Shown here in pieces: positions 32,880-63,587 of a stretch of 64,000 bases of DNA. The translations under genes were made by a program, and so were the position numbers. Under the pieces are notes generated by a model that had not been told where the DNA came from, did no database searches, and saw only the letters and a list, made by a program, of their open reading frames with translations. Every line of letters begins with the position of its first letter. Within the stretch, counting starts at the first letter, position 1. The DNA lies in the NCBI RefSeq assembly GCF_007489285.1, contig NZ_VLIY01000001.1, positions 124,001 through 188,000 of the forward strand, in the 5' to 3' direction. Source of the DNA: Skermania sp. ID1734 (GTDB taxonomy: Bacteria > Actinomycetota > Actinomycetes > Mycobacteriales > Mycobacteriaceae).

Positions 32880-34166
32880 TTAGAAGTACCGCAGCCCGAT
32901 ATAAATCCACGCCAATACGGTGCTCAATGCCGTGACGATGATCCCGTAGCGGGTGAACTGCCAGAAACCGATGGGATGCCCGGTCCGCTGCGCAATACCT
33001 ATCGCAACGACGTTGGCGCTGGCAGCGACCGCGGTGCCGTTGCCACCGAAGCACGCGCCGAGCGCGAAGGCCCACCACAGCGCGCGCCCCGTCGCCGCGT
33101 CTGGTGCTTGCGCCGCAACTCCTTCCACTACCGGCGCCATTGTTGTCGTGTAGGGAATATTGTCGATGAACGCCCCAATCACCGCCGACCCGAACAGCAG
33201 CGCAGTGGCAGCAGTGAAGAAGTTGTCCCCGACCACCTCAAGGGTCCAACTGCCGATAGCTTCGATCACCCCGGTGTGTACGAGGCCGGCCACCATGACG
33301 AAGAGGCCAACAAAGAACGCAAGCGTCGGCCATTCGACCTCGCCGAGGACGTCGTTGACGTCGTAATCTGCAACCAGCAGCATCAACCCTGCCCCGATAA
33401 GCGCAACCAGCGATGGCGGTAGATGCAGCACCCCGTGCAGCGCAAAGCCGGTGATGACCAATGCCAGCACGATCATGCAGCGAAGCAGCAACTTCCGATC
33501 AGTGATGGCGCGGCGTTCTTGCAGCGCCATCACCTCGGCGATATTTTGCGGCTTGCAGCGCAACGACTTTCGAAACAGCAGCCGGGTGAACACCACGAAC
33601 AACGCGAAAATGCCCACGACAACGGGTGCCATGTGGACGAGAAAGTCGTTGAACGACAAGCCTGCTCGACTGCCGATGATGATGTTCGGAGGATCACCAA
33701 TAAGCGTGGCGGCACCACCGATGTTGGACGCCAGCACTTCTGCGATGAGATAGGGCTGGGCCGGAATACGCAATCGATTGCACACCACCACGGTCACCGG
33801 CGCCACAAGCATGATCGTGGTGACGTTATCCAGAAATGGAGATGCGACAGCGGTGATGAACATCAACATCACCATCAGCCGATAGGGCTTGCCACGGGAG
33901 CGCTTCGCCGCCCAAATGGCCAGGTAGTCGAAAATTCCGGTCTGCTTGACGATTCCGACGATCACCATCATGCCGAGCAAGAGGAAGATGACGTTCCAGT
34001 CGATACCCTCGTGCTCGGAAAAGAAGACCTCGTCGCCGGGAATGAGGCCGAGCAGCGCCATGGCACCGGCCGCCACCAGCACCGTCTTCACCTTGTCCAC
34101 CCGTTCGGTGGCAATACACCCGAACGCGACGATGAAGATGAGAAGGGCGAGCAGGGGTGCAATCAT
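32880..34166 (-). CDS. ion transporter, IT superfamily (ArsB/NhaD/P-protein type)
   Basis: A 428-residue protein with about 11 membrane helices. LLLGMMVIVGIVKQTGIFDY, FLDNVTTIMLVAPVTVVVCN and SNIGGAATLIGDPPNIIIGS are signatures of the ArsB/NhaD/P-protein branch; FIDNIPYTTTMAPVV is the matching motif in the second half. The branch carries anions with H+ or Na+, or acts as a Na+/H+ antiporter; the ion here is not determined. Immediately upstream, on the same strand, are a CBS-pair protein and a KhtT-like protein, which may regulate it. No arsenate reductase or ArsR lies near, so an arsenic role is not supported. Confidence 0.85.
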   Translation of the reverse strand: MIAPLLALLIFIVAFGCIATERVDKVKTVLVAAGAMALLGLIPGDEVFFSEHEGIDWNVIFLLLGMMVIVGIVKQTGIFDYLAIWAAKRSRGKPYRLMVMLMFITAVASPFLDNVTTIMLVAPVTVVVCNRLRIPAQPYLIAEVLASNIGGAATLIGDPPNIIIGSRAGLSFNDFLVHMAPVVVGIFALFVVFTRLLFRKSLRCKPQNIAEVMALQERRAITDRKLLLRCMIVLALVITGFALHGVLHLPPSLVALIGAGLMLLVADYDVNDVLGEVEWPTLAFFVGLFVMVAGLVHTGVIEAIGSWTLEVVGDNFFTAATALLFGSAVIGAFIDNIPYTTTMAPVVEGVAAQAPDAATGRALWWAFALGACFGGNGTAVAASANVVAIGIAQRTGHPIGFWQFTRYGIIVTALSTVLAWIYIGLRYF

Positions 34167-34194
34167 GCGGTCACACCCCTGCTCTCATGCAAGA

Positions 34195-34695
34195 TCAGTC
34201 GCCGGGGCCCGAGACCGCGAGGCTGGTGAGGAGGCGCTCCAACGTCACGGCGCCGATCAGGACACCGGTTCGGTCCACGACCGCCACCAAAGGGCTGTGC
34301 TGGCGTGCCATCAGGGTCGCCACCTCGAGCACGGTAGCGGTGGGCAAAACAGTGACCGGCTTGGCCGGCTGCTGCGGCAGACAGTCACCGACGGTCAGGG
34401 TGCCCGGCTCCAGCCAGAACAAATCGGCATGGACCTCGTCGATGGTGCGCGCCAGTGCAGGGTCATTCTGGTAGGAGCCGGGAATAGTCAAGCGCAACAC
34501 CTGTGTTCCGGGAAGAACGGCAATGGGCCGCGACTTCTCGTCCACGACAACGAGTCCCGGCATGCGGTTGACCACCATCAGCCGTACCGCCCGGGCCACC
34601 GGATCCGACGGGGTGACCGTCGGAAGTTTCGCGGCGATGTCGCGTGCTTGCATGGCACCGTCCCGTTGTGCGCAGTAGTCGGTGATCATCGGCAT
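34195..34695 (-). CDS. CBS-pair regulatory protein
   Basis: A 166-residue protein of two CBS motifs: one near 15-70 ([40 protein letters not shown]) and one near 100-160 ([40 protein letters not shown]). CBS pairs bind adenine nucleotides. There is no other domain. It lies 28 bases before the transporter, in the same direction, which suggests that it senses energy or nucleotide state and modulates the transporter. The start may be 34695, 34689 (ATGA overlap with the preceding gene) or the later Met of MQARD. Confidence 0.82.
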
Positions 34696-34952
34696 CGATC
34701 CTCACGAATCAGTTGGTCGACGAGTCGCTCCACGGTGGCAAGCCGATCGGGAATCGAACGGCTCTGCAGAAGTTGGGCGACCTGATCAGCCTCATCGGGT
34801 TCCAAAGCGATCACCTGGTAAGGCTCGTCGGCACCGTCATACACGAAAAGTTGCCGATCACGAGTGACAAGCACAGCGAAGCGCTGCCCGTCGCGGGTGA
34901 TCAGCTGGTGCAGGACGCCCGCGCCTGGAACCGTGCTCCGGGTGATCTCCAT
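34686..34952 (-). CDS. KhtT N-domain-like small regulator
   Basis: An 88-residue protein: [20 protein letters not shown], then [20 protein letters not shown] and [19 protein letters not shown]. The PGxG start, the beta-rich middle and the LDPDEA-x3-A-x3-L end match the N-terminal domain of KhtT-type regulatory subunits of cation/proton antiporters, without the C-terminal TrkA_C domain. It overlaps the CBS gene and is transcribed toward the transporter. The closeness to an IT-type transporter instead of a CPA2 antiporter is unusual. Start ATG at 34952. Confidence 0.6.
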
Positions 34953-35091
34953 GCTCCGACTCTCGCAGCGGCCGTCGCCGACGACCATCGGCGCCAACAC
35001 CCATGTTTGCCCGGCTCGGGAACGTGGACAGGGACGAAAATGGGCGACGAACCCCATGGACAACCGTCACGCACCGGGTAACGCTGGGGCG

Positions 35092-36066
35092 ATGGCAGTA
35101 CACCGGTCTCCCGCGCGAGCCCTGTTTCGACGACTCATCGCCATCAACGGACTCGTCTTTGCTGTGGGCACGCTCGCCTTGGCAGTGTCACCGGCGACCG
35201 TGTCCTCGCCGATTCTGCTCACCGAAATTCCAGTGTTGATCATCGGCCTCGCCGTGATTCTCACTGCGAACGGTCTGCTGTTGCGGGCCAGCCTTTCGCC
35301 CCTGGATTCGTTGGCGACGCTGATGGAGCGCGTCGATCCGCTGCGCCGCGGCGACCGACTCACCGTAGCGGGCAATGGAGACCTGTCCGAGCTGATCGCG
35401 AGTTTCAACTCGATGCTGGACCGCCTGGAGTCCGAACGTGCGGCGGCGAGCGCATACGCCCTCACCGCGCAGGAGGGCGAACGACAACGCATCGCACGCG
35501 AACTGCACGATGAAGTCGGCCAGAGCCTCACCGTCGCTTTGCTGACAATGAAGCGCGCGGTCGACCGGTCCCCGCCGGCCGCGCGCGATGATCTGCGTAG
35601 CGCTCAGGAAACGGTGCGCGCGAGCCTGGACGAGGTTCGTGGCATCGCGCAACGACTACGGCCGGATGTGCTCGACGATCTCGGCTTGGAGAGTGCACTG
35701 AACGCGCTGTGTTCCGACTTCGCCCGGGCCAGCGGGGTGGCTGTGGATCGAAACATCGATCCTGGCCTTCCGCGACTAGGTTCGGACGCCGAACTGGTCT
35801 GCTACCGGATCGCCCAGGAAGGTCTGACCAACATTGCCCGCCATGCCGACGCGACAACCGTCGGCTTTTCACTCAGTGCGTCGCAAGATCGAATACTTTT
35901 GCGGATCAAGGACAACGGCCGGGGCGGCGCCGACGAGGAGGGCGCCGGAATCCGGGGTATGCGCGAACGCGCTTTGTTGGTAGGCGGTGCATTGCGGATT
36001 AGTTCGCCGCCTCGGGCCGGCACGGAGATCCGGTTGGCCATCCCTGCCGTGACGGAACTGAAATGA
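35092..36066 (+). CDS. NarL-type sensor histidine kinase, intramembrane sensing
   Basis: A 324-residue kinase from ATG 35092 (ATG at 35056 would add 12 residues). Two membrane helices (about 14-33 and 41-63) are joined by only about seven residues, followed by a HAMP linker (64-115), the HisKA_3 dimer helix with phospho-acceptor H139 in RQRIARELHDEVGQ, and an HATPase domain (IAQEGLTNIARHADAT, IKDNGRGGADEEGAGIRGMR). It lacks an extracellular sensor domain, so it reads membrane state or a partner. It overlaps the response regulator (ATGA) and is divergent from the KhtT-like/CBS/transporter genes. Confidence 0.9.
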   Translation: MAVHRSPARALFRRLIAINGLVFAVGTLALAVSPATVSSPILLTEIPVLIIGLAVILTANGLLLRASLSPLDSLATLMERVDPLRRGDRLTVAGNGDLSELIASFNSMLDRLESERAAASAYALTAQEGERQRIARELHDEVGQSLTVALLTMKRAVDRSPPAARDDLRSAQETVRASLDEVRGIAQRLRPDVLDDLGLESALNALCSDFARASGVAVDRNIDPGLPRLGSDAELVCYRIAQEGLTNIARHADATTVGFSLSASQDRILLRIKDNGRGGADEEGAGIRGMRERALLVGGALRISSPPRAGTEIRLAIPAVTELK

Positions 36067-36716
36067 CCACGCCAATAAAGATTTTGCTCGCCGACGACCA
36101 CGCGTTGGTGCGCAGCGGCCTTCGCCTGATTATCGATGCCGAATCCGATCTGCAGGTGGTTGTGGAGGCGGCCAACGGTGCGGAGGCAATCGCCGCCGTC
36201 AGCGAAACGCCCGTCGACATAGCAATTCTCGACATTGCCATGCCCAGGATGACCGGTATCCAGGCGGCGCGCGAGATCGCCCGGCAGGCACCGAACGTGC
36301 GAATGCTCATGCTGTCCATGTACGACAACGAGCAGTACTTCTTCGAAGCGCTGAAAGCCGGTGCGTCCGGGTACGTGTTGAAGTCGGTCGCCGATCGCGA
36401 CCTGATCGAGGCCTGCCGAGCAACGATGCGTGGTGAGTCATTCCTGTATCCAGGAGCCGTCACTGCGTTGGTCAGCGACTACCTGCTGCGGATGCGCCGC
36501 GGCGACTCGATACCCGACGCGATACTGACGACCCGCGAAGAGGAGGTGGTCAAGCTCATCGCGGAGGGCAATTCGAGCCGCGACATCGCAAAAACGTTGG
36601 TGATCAGCGTGAAAACCGTGGACCGGCATCGCGCGAACATCCTGCAGAAACTCGGCCTACGTGACCGGCTCGAACTGACGCGTTATGCAATCCGGGCAGG
36701 GCTGGTGGAACCGTAG
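36063..36716 (+). CDS. NarL/FixJ-family response regulator
   Basis: A 217-residue regulator. The receiver domain (1-120) has the acidic pair D11-D12, the phospho-acceptor D57 (AILDIAMPRM) and K107 (GYVLKS). The C-terminal LuxR-type helix-turn-helix (about 150-210) has TTREEEVVKLIAEGNSSRDI and VKTVDRHRANILQKL. It is translated with the kinase by ATGA overlap. The divergent transporter block is the most likely target, which is inference. It is convergent with the thioesterase gene, five bases apart. Confidence 0.93.
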   Translation: MTTPIKILLADDHALVRSGLRLIIDAESDLQVVVEAANGAEAIAAVSETPVDIAILDIAMPRMTGIQAAREIARQAPNVRMLMLSMYDNEQYFFEALKAGASGYVLKSVADRDLIEACRATMRGESFLYPGAVTALVSDYLLRMRRGDSIPDAILTTREEEVVKLIAEGNSSRDIAKTLVISVKTVDRHRANILQKLGLRDRLELTRYAIRAGLVEP

Positions 36717-61535: not shown

Positions 61536-63587
61536 TTACGGCGCCGTGAGCAGCGCCGCGACGGCGTCGAGTTCCGCCCGACGACCGAGCAGAGTGAGCA
61601 CATCGTCGGCCGCTAGGGTGGTCGCCGCCGACGGTGGCAGCGAGGTGTCCTCCCGCAGCACACCCGCCACAATTACGCCGTCTGGCAACTGACCGTCACC
61701 GAGAGCCGAACCGACAAGCGGCGACTCGGCCGCCACGACGACGTCAGCGATCTCGACGTCGGCCGCCACCGTCGCGAATCGCCCGATCTCCTGTTGCACC
61801 GCCCTGCGATAGGCGGCGACCACTTCGCGCAAACCGATGACGCCCCGAACGTGCCGTTGCGCGTCGACGACGGGCAACCAATGTCGCTCGGGCACAAGGG
61901 CTTCGATGGCGAGGTCGACGCTGGCGTCGGGTGGCACGGTGACCGCCGCCCGGTCGACAAAATCCAACACGCAGTAGTGCCCGTCGGGATCAGATCGTCC
62001 AATCCGCGCAACTGTGCCGACGAATCGACCATCGGCATCCACGACGGGCGCGCCGGGCACCGATTCCGACTCGAGGCGGTGCATCGCTTCGGTCAACGGC
62101 AGGTCCGCAGCCAGCACCAGTCTCGGCGGCACCATCGCATCGGCCACTGCCACACCCTGAAGCAGCGGCATCGCACGGTTGAGCCGGTTGGCCATCGCGA
62201 CATCACGATTCTCCAACTGCGACCGGTAAATGGTTTCCCCGGATGCGCGCACAATCATGTACGACAGACCGACCGCGACCATCGCCGGCGCGAGCAACGT
62301 GATGCTGCCTGTCATTTCGGCAACCATGAGCATGACGGCGAGGGGCACTCGCGCAATGCTGCCGAAGCAGGACATCATGCCGACCACAACGAACGGTGCC
62401 GGGCTGTGCGGAACCGCCGGCGCGATCGGTTCGAGCAGGCGCCACACGGCCGCACCGGTGAAGGCCCCAATGACCATGCCGGGCCCGAAGATCCCGCCCG
62501 AACCACCGGACCCCACCGTGAGCGACGTGGCCACAATCTTCGCGACCGGTAAGACCAGCACCAGCCACAACGGCAGATCCAGCAGTGTCGCGCGGTTCAG
62601 CGCGTGCTGCACCCAGCCGTAGCCGCTGCCCAAGATTTGTGGAACCGCCAACGCCAGCACGCCGACCAGCAGACCACCGATGGCCGGCTTGATGATTCGA
62701 CTACCGGGTAACCGATGTGTCAGGCCGACGGTGAAGTAGAACGTCTTGGCGTAGAGCCAGCCGATGAACCCGCCCAGGATGCCGATCACCGCGAACCACA
62801 CCAGCTGGACGGGGTCGGTGAAGCGGTAATCTGTTGCCACATAACCGAATAACGGTTGGAAACCGAGAATCGAACCGTAGACGCCGTAGCTGACAATCGC
62901 GGTGAAAACACCTGGGATGATCGCCGAGAACTCGAAGTCGTCCTTGTAAACGATTGCGCCGCACAACAATGCACCGCCGAGCGGCGCCCCGAAGATCGCT
63001 CCGATCCCCGATCCGATGCCCACGGCCACCGCGATGCGGCCATCCCGCAAGGGCAGGTCGAGCCACCGGGTGAGCAGCGAGCCGAATCCCGCCGAAATCT
63101 GCGCGGTCGGGCCTTCTCGCCCGGCCGACCCGCCGGACCCGATGGTGATCGCCGAGGCGACAAGTTTGACAAGGACCGCGCGCATTCTGATCATGCGAGG
63201 ATTGGTGTTCACGGCTTCGATAGCCGCGTCGGTTCCGTGCCCCTCCGCTTCTGGCGCGAGAGTGAACACGATGAGGCCAGCCAACAACCCGCCCCCGCCG
63301 ACAACCAACGGGATGGCCCACCACCGGGTGAACCCGGCATCTCCCGTCGATCCCCCGTCGCCGTAGGCGTTCGGCGGCAGGTAGCCACCCAGTTTGTCGA
63401 GAAGAAGCGCGGTCGCCTCGCTGAGGCTCAGATAGAACACGACGGCGCCGAGACCGGCAATGACACCAATGGTCACGCCCAGAACGAGCCACTTGCGCAG
63501 GTAGCTCGACCGCCGGACCCACTCGCCGGCGCCATCGCCCGCCCGCCGCAGCGTCCGTTGCGTGGCTCCTATGACAGCGCCGGGCAT
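61536..63587 (-). CDS. ClC-family chloride channel/antiporter with CBS and TrkA_C domains
   Basis: A 683-residue protein. The ClC core (about 30-465) carries GSGGSAGREGP at 150-160, with E158 as the gating Glu, GSGGSGGIFGPGMVIGA and a third conserved motif region GIGAIFGAPLGGALL. Two CBS motifs follow (about 480-610; AMVPPRLVLAADLPLTEAMH, ALVPERHWLPVVDAQRHVRG), and a TrkA_C-like domain ends it. The CBS and TrkA_C domains suggest nucleotide or ion gating. It is transcribed away from the window edge toward the hydrolase gene. Confidence 0.92.
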   Translation of the reverse strand: MPGAVIGATQRTLRRAGDGAGEWVRRSSYLRKWLVLGVTIGVIAGLGAVVFYLSLSEATALLLDKLGGYLPPNAYGDGGSTGDAGFTRWWAIPLVVGGGGLLAGLIVFTLAPEAEGHGTDAAIEAVNTNPRMIRMRAVLVKLVASAITIGSGGSAGREGPTAQISAGFGSLLTRWLDLPLRDGRIAVAVGIGSGIGAIFGAPLGGALLCGAIVYKDDFEFSAIIPGVFTAIVSYGVYGSILGFQPLFGYVATDYRFTDPVQLVWFAVIGILGGFIGWLYAKTFYFTVGLTHRLPGSRIIKPAIGGLLVGVLALAVPQILGSGYGWVQHALNRATLLDLPLWLVLVLPVAKIVATSLTVGSGGSGGIFGPGMVIGAFTGAAVWRLLEPIAPAVPHSPAPFVVVGMMSCFGSIARVPLAVMLMVAEMTGSITLLAPAMVAVGLSYMIVRASGETIYRSQLENRDVAMANRLNRAMPLLQGVAVADAMVPPRLVLAADLPLTEAMHRLESESVPGAPVVDADGRFVGTVARIGRSDPDGHYCVLDFVDRAAVTVPPDASVDLAIEALVPERHWLPVVDAQRHVRGVIGLREVVAAYRRAVQQEIGRFATVAADVEIADVVVAAESPLVGSALGDGQLPDGVIVAGVLREDTSLPPSAATTLAADDVLTLLGRRAELDAVAALLTAP

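Follow-up and report, generated by a model that had tools for sequence, protein, structure and literature searches.

Among the known systems closest to the one described here are KhtTU of Bacillus subtilis and CpeAB of Streptomyces, K+/H+ antiporters with a regulatory KhtT subunit. In the literature consulted, subunits of the KhtT type occur only with antiporters of the CPA2 class (PMC10117811). We analysed a 64,000-nt stretch of the genome of Skermania sp. ID1734 (assembly GCF_007489285.1, contig NZ_VLIY01000001.1), denoted the window, in which a module of five genes at positions 32880–36716 encodes a KhtT N-domain homologue (KhtT-N) in a tight operon with a transporter. KhtTU and CpeAB share this arrangement, and the theme of cation/proton antiport is probably also common to them and the module. 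The module differs from both systems in that the RCK_C (cyclic di-AMP) domain is missing, the transporter is assigned to the IT superfamily and not to CPA2, and a protein with a pair of CBS domains is added. The Skermania operon contains no CPA2 partner; it is only in certain other genomes that the module has CPA genes next to it.

The transporter also invites comparison with NhaD and NhaB, the IT-superfamily Na+/H+ antiporters, with which it shares the superfamily and aspartates at both hairpins. It differs from them in sequence (∼21–26% identity to the compared examples) and falls under the family cut-offs; we know of no CBS or KhtT-N partners of NhaD or NhaB. The overall fold is shared with the ArsB efflux pump, but the metalloid- and proton-coupling residues of ArsB are not conserved, and no ars genes were recognised around the module. 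Among the NCBIfam models, which have curated cut-offs, the best score was obtained for the magnetosome transporter MamN (205.4 bits); it is below the cut-off of 500, and the module context contains no magnetosome genes. The parts are therefore of known types, whereas their combination is apparently undescribed: we found no matching description in the open-access literature searched, which is not the whole literature, and within it CBS domains together with ArsB and NhaD led only to unrelated work on Borrelia. The reading we favour, at about even confidence, is that the module specifies an IT-superfamily cation/H+ antiporter under transcriptional control, which has a constant CBS-pair partner and a repeatedly lost KhtT-N accessory, the soluble partners setting its activity.

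Gene arrangement and conservation of the module

The minus strand carries the genes of the 88-residue KhtT-N protein (34686–34952), a stand-alone CBS-pair protein of 166 residues (34195–34695) and the 428-residue transporter (32880–34166). Divergent from them, on the plus strand, are the genes of a sensor histidine kinase (∼35056–36066) and a NarL-type response regulator of 217 residues (36063–36716). The coordinates agree with the five genes of the original prediction, which was made from the DNA letters and their open reading frames. The KhtT-N and CBS genes overlap by 10 bp, the CBS and transporter genes are separated by 28 bp, and the kinase and regulator genes overlap by 4 bp. The kinase starts at the ATG at 35056 or at that at 35092. 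A 125-residue open reading frame at 34686–35063 is the KhtT-N gene with its start set too early, at an upstream TTG; the homologues begin at the ATG at 34952.

A CBS-profile scan of named genomes yielded 234 relatives, of which the best 80 loci were analysed; this set is hence selected for the CBS protein. The CBS gene was followed directly downstream, on the same strand, by the transporter gene in all 80 loci, with a median gap of 42 bp between BLAST matches. The kinase was found within 6 kb in 78 loci and lay divergently upstream in 74, the response regulator was present in 76, and a KhtT-N gene directly preceded the CBS gene in 43. Independently of the CBS selection, we took a class sample of 394 genomes by way of the transporter. 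Here, a CBS gene lay within 1 kb of 16 of the 18 transporters with at least 70% identity; the two exceptions (L178 and L179) are a stripped-down and an N-terminally shortened copy. The same was true for 23 of 52 distant transporters (52–59% identity). The presence of the CBS gene near both close and distant transporters indicates that the two form the old core of the module.

Searching the family and the class revealed the same cluster in other genera. Those of the named genomes include Nocardia, Mycobacterium/Mycolicibacterium, Antrihabitans, Planomonospora, Nonomuraea, Streptosporangium, Saccharothrix, Lentzea, Prauserella, Amycolatopsis, Actinomadura and Virgisporangium. This recurrence spans Streptosporangiaceae, Pseudonocardiaceae and Thermomonosporaceae, with differing chromosomal surroundings. 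Because the flanking genes vary from genus to genus, the linkage is not explained by plain shared synteny; rocA and putA, which flank the module in the window, are not beside it elsewhere. The original prediction of a regulated transport module hinged on the five genes recurring together in other actinomycetes, and they do so as a conserved unit. Its proposal of a strictly three-part transporter needs correction, since KhtT-N was found beside CBS in just over half of the loci; the constant core consists of CBS protein, transporter and two-component system.

Two Rhodococcus megaplasmids (L141 and L142) also carry the module, which can therefore pass from one strain to another. The small protein lies between the kinase and CBS genes in L141, whereas the annotation of L142 shows no gene at this place.

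The transporter and its candidate ion site

The top Pfam family of the transporter is CitMHS (E=6.5e-92), with further matches to ArsB and NhaB. The best PDB match of its AlphaFold2 model (predicted local distance difference test score, pLDDT, of 77) was the 2026 structure of ArsB, 10tp (Z score of 40.7, root-mean-square deviation of 3.4, 414 residues). ArsB was followed in the list by DASS carriers, NaS1, NaDC3 and others, at Z scores of ∼28–34 (second-best 34.2). The model thus has the ArsB/DASS fold of two inverted halves with paired hairpins, which assigns the transporter to the IT superfamily. As its scores are below the cut-offs for NhaB, NhaD, ArsB and MamN, the transporter represents a separate family with an antiporter-like site; full membership of NhaD or NhaB is excluded by these scores.

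The tips of both hairpins bear an Asp-Asn (DN) pair, as in NhaD. The two aspartates, D113 and D335, are invariant in 36 sequences and align with D146 and D404 of E. coli NhaB and with NhaD-like aspartates. Mutation of K. pneumoniae NhaB places the two aspartates in the Na+/substrate site, and in Halomonas NhaD1, D166 and D405 are essential, as is the set S162-D166-N167 (reviewed in PMC9408914). S109-D113-N114 of the transporter reproduces this set. The arrangement, with an aspartate at each hairpin tip, is that of an NhaD/NhaB-type ion site and suggests a monovalent cation as the transported substrate, the same positions being no proof of the same substrate. The transporter is most likely a monovalent cation/H+ antiporter for sodium or potassium.

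The neighbours of the module in other genomes point in the same direction as the ion-site residues, namely towards cation/H+ antiport. Genes of the Mrp Na+/H+ antiporter lie downstream in many mycobacterial loci, in one case (L108) 113 bp past the transporter gene. In loci of Nocardia, Lentzea, Umezawaea and Nonomuraea, the module is accompanied by genes of a CPA2 antiporter (KhtU) and of a complete KhtT that includes TrkA_C. On plasmids of Streptomyces and Kitasatospora, a CPA antiporter gene overlaps the CBS gene or ends a few bases from it in a tight operon, and the CBS gene in turn overlaps the gene of a transporter with 52–54% identity.

Two other activities have to be weighed against monovalent cation/H+ antiport. 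An arsenite/antimonite efflux pump, that is, ArsB proper or a close functional analogue, would be in line with the best structural match, well over the next in Z score, and with the public annotation of the protein as an ‘ArsB/NhaD family transporter’. We consider such a pump improbable and reject it chiefly on the residues: of the metalloid/proton residues N111, D112, D148, N158 and N337 of ArsB (PMC13381914), N111 and N337 are kept (N114 and N336), but D112, D148 and N158 are replaced by V115, G151 and D158. Moreover, the ArsB family score is 103.8 bits against a cut-off of 457, and no ars gene was recognised among the recurrent flanking gene families, which are those of antiporters. As to the substrate, which the original prediction had left unnamed, the evidence favours a monovalent cation, exchanged for H+, over arsenite. 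The transporter could also be an H+- or Na+-coupled carrier of carboxylates or other anions (DASS/CitMHS), with the CBS protein and the two-component system tuning nutrient uptake. The top Pfam family, the DASS carriers that come next after ArsB and the resemblance of the kinase domain to UhpB and MctS, proteins that serve nutrient uptake, speak for this. It is nevertheless unlikely, as the hairpin tips of DASS symporters bear an SNT motif (PMC13381914) and both tips of the transporter have DN, and as the recurrent neighbours are cation/proton antiporter genes, not catabolic ones.

The KhtT-N and CBS-pair proteins

The 88-residue protein had no Pfam match, and none to TrkA_C. A profile of its orthologues, however, matched the solved structures of the KhtT N-domain (7agw, E=3.2e-9) and of full KhtT (7agv, E=1.9e-8). 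Its predicted structure (pLDDT 81) retrieved KhtT at ranks 1–13 of a Foldseek search of the PDB, and KhtT entries also came first by Z score (6.6, compared to 4.9 for the next unrelated entry). The protein thus comprises the KhtT N-terminal domain, and a conserved C-terminal helix replaces RCK_C (TrkA_C) at the end of the chain. Profile and predicted fold bear out the original assignment of a KhtT N-domain, and also its placement beside a transporter outside CPA2, the partner being of the CitMHS/ArsB type by Pfam.

In a tree of 93 sequences, 56 stand-alone KhtT-N proteins were split from the N-domains of 37 full-length KhtT proteins with a branch support of 99/93; one stand-alone sequence, from Virgisporangium, forms a long branch next to KhtT, and given the few columns the tree calls for cautious reading. 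Differences among the Nocardia orthologues number 1474 at third codon positions versus 875 and 510 at the others, an excess that is the pattern of a translated gene. The presence of the KhtT-N gene requires nine changes on the transporter tree; the protein is hence an accessory, gained or lost several times, and not an obligate subunit.

Whether KhtT-N belongs functionally to the neighbouring transporter can be questioned in two ways. Its target may be a CPA2 antiporter (KhtU) encoded at a different place in the genome, co-expression being the only reason for its position in the module. The Skermania genome does encode a full-length KhtT-like protein on contig C5, KhtT and KhtU genes adjoin the module in some Nocardia loci, and the sole orphan KhtT-N gene (in genome G237) lies among genes of CPA, CPA with TrkA_C and NhaA antiporters. 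We regard this as possible but somewhat unlikely: the KhtT-N gene is co-directional with the CBS and transporter genes and overlaps the former, most loci with a KhtT-N protein have no KhtU within 6 kb, and KhtT-N sequences are separate from KhtT in the tree. A decaying remnant of KhtT, on the other hand, would explain the missing RCK_C domain and the loci in which the gene is absent or fragmentary. This is very improbable and was rejected on the codon pattern and the tree, in which all stand-alone copies, from several families, fall on one side of a well-supported branch; conservation of the C-terminal helix likewise argues against decay. An accessory of the neighbouring transporter remains our preferred view of KhtT-N.

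The CBS-pair protein (Pfam CBS, E=6e-15) is matched nearly over its full length by PDB entry 4NOC (E=2.9e-38), an uncharacterised CBS-pair protein whose entry title gives no function. The match includes the unusual linker between the repeats, which is conserved, and an arginine replacing the ribose-site aspartate. Comparison of the alignment by eye with the Pfam consensus showed T-x-x-R in repeat 2, with R154 invariant, and no T/S-x-x-D at the matching place in repeat 1. Because the ribose-binding motif is missing from both repeats, the motif lends no support to control by ATP or AMP; other ligands or modes are possible. Nucleotide control of the module through the CBS pair, which had been proposed, is accordingly weakened and appears doubtful.

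At 61536–63587 (minus strand), the window further encodes a ClC-type chloride channel protein whose single chain unites CBS domains with a TrkA_C (RCK_C) domain at the C-terminus. It represents, in fused form, the type of regulation proposed for the module.

Two-component system, DNA motif and proposed mode of action

The kinase has two hydrophobic segments, whose hydropathy peaks around residue 42 and around residue 74 of the aligned protein, with ∼12 residues between the helices. The inter-helix loop is strongly conserved in an alignment of 78 sequences (consensus SPATVS...LTE) and is followed by HAMP, HisKA_3 and HATPase_c domains. Two transmembrane helices, a very short extracytoplasmic loop and no extra sensor domain make up the architecture of an intramembrane-sensing histidine kinase, the type originally proposed. 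The regulator combines a receiver domain (Response_reg, E=1.5e-28) with a GerE/LuxR helix-turn-helix (GerE, E=5.2e-17), as in the NarL/FixJ type.

Between the divergent operons lies a conserved 22-bp motif with the consensus RATGGGTGYCRGMCCCGATGGT (34984–35005, minus strand), ∼33 bp upstream of the KhtT-N gene. It occurs with at most three mismatches in 66 of 74 loci and in the same orientation in 68 of 74, spans families and persists where the KhtT-N gene is missing. As controls, 370 segments of equal length were taken from other parts of these loci, and none matched at up to four mismatches. The consensus was derived from the compared loci and the test is accordingly not blind, but the difference is wide. 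The genome has no better copy than that of the window (34985–35004), which deviates from the 20-bp core by one mismatch. The motif is an imperfect dyad, a form of site often used by NarL-type regulators, and is probably the response-regulator site. A wide regulon was ruled out, as the genome has only one near-perfect copy; two copies with two mismatches, both on contig C9, are in or beside apparently unrelated genes.

Other genes were noted around the module. In mycobacteria (loci among L085–L132), the far side of the regulator is occupied by a gene of a small DUF1707 SHOCT-like membrane protein; in Streptosporangium amethystogenes (L109, 1952–3463), a second CBS protein and a nitroreductase-like protein adjoin the regulator, which recalls hypoxia/dormancy regulons. 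A gene of an SPFH/Band 7 (stomatin-like) protein lies inside or beside the module in some Streptosporangiaceae (L031, L032, L070, L131 and others), sometimes between the KhtT-N and kinase genes, and a flotillin/SPFH gene is also found near the CBS gene on Streptomyces plasmids.

Our working model is as follows. The minus-strand operon would produce a secondary monovalent cation/proton antiporter whose scaffold resembles ArsB and whose ion site resembles that of NhaB/NhaD. With it would come two soluble partners, the CBS pair (encoded with all close relatives examined except the two reduced copies) and KhtT-N (with about half). Most likely, both partners would attach to the transporter from the cytoplasmic side and adjust its activity. 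KhtT-N would serve for docking or respond to pH or ions, on the pattern of KhtTU, and the CBS pair would take the position of the ligand-binding RCK_C domain of KhtT. The kinase, with its two helices and the short loop between them, may sense a signal linked to the membrane and would phosphorylate the regulator, which would bind the 22-bp site and control both operons, probably switching the transporter operon on.

Several observations weigh against this model. The transporter scores far below the cut-offs for NhaD (67.2 versus 577.1 bits) and NhaB (36.4 versus 640 bits), is also below that for NhaD_1 (63.1 versus 80) and is accordingly a member of neither family; its overall fold is nearest to ArsB, with no NhaD or NhaB structure among the matches listed. 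Both CBS repeats are devoid of the canonical ribose-binding motif. The KhtT-N gene is missing beside the CBS gene in 37 of the 80 loci and is therefore not essential everywhere. Finally, the antiporter neighbourhood may reflect a shared stress response and not a shared substrate.

The module brings together a transporter that is unnamed yet highly conserved in mycobacteria, nocardiae and streptosporangia (70–78% identity across families), an orphan family of CBS proteins for which there is a solved structure but no function, an unnamed small relative of an antiporter regulator, and a two-component system that is uncharacterised but has a defined candidate DNA site, each part being directly testable. 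Should the model be confirmed, the IT transporter superfamily would join those with soluble gating subunits of the KhtT type. More tentatively, the CBS pair and KhtT-N could jointly gate an IT-superfamily cation/H+ antiporter as a split assembly, in which the CBS pair replaces the RCK_C sensor. If true, a ligand-gated system of regulatory subunits would thereby be described for the first time in this class of transporters, and it would be controlled by a two-component system that is widespread in actinobacteria and serves ion or pH homeostasis.

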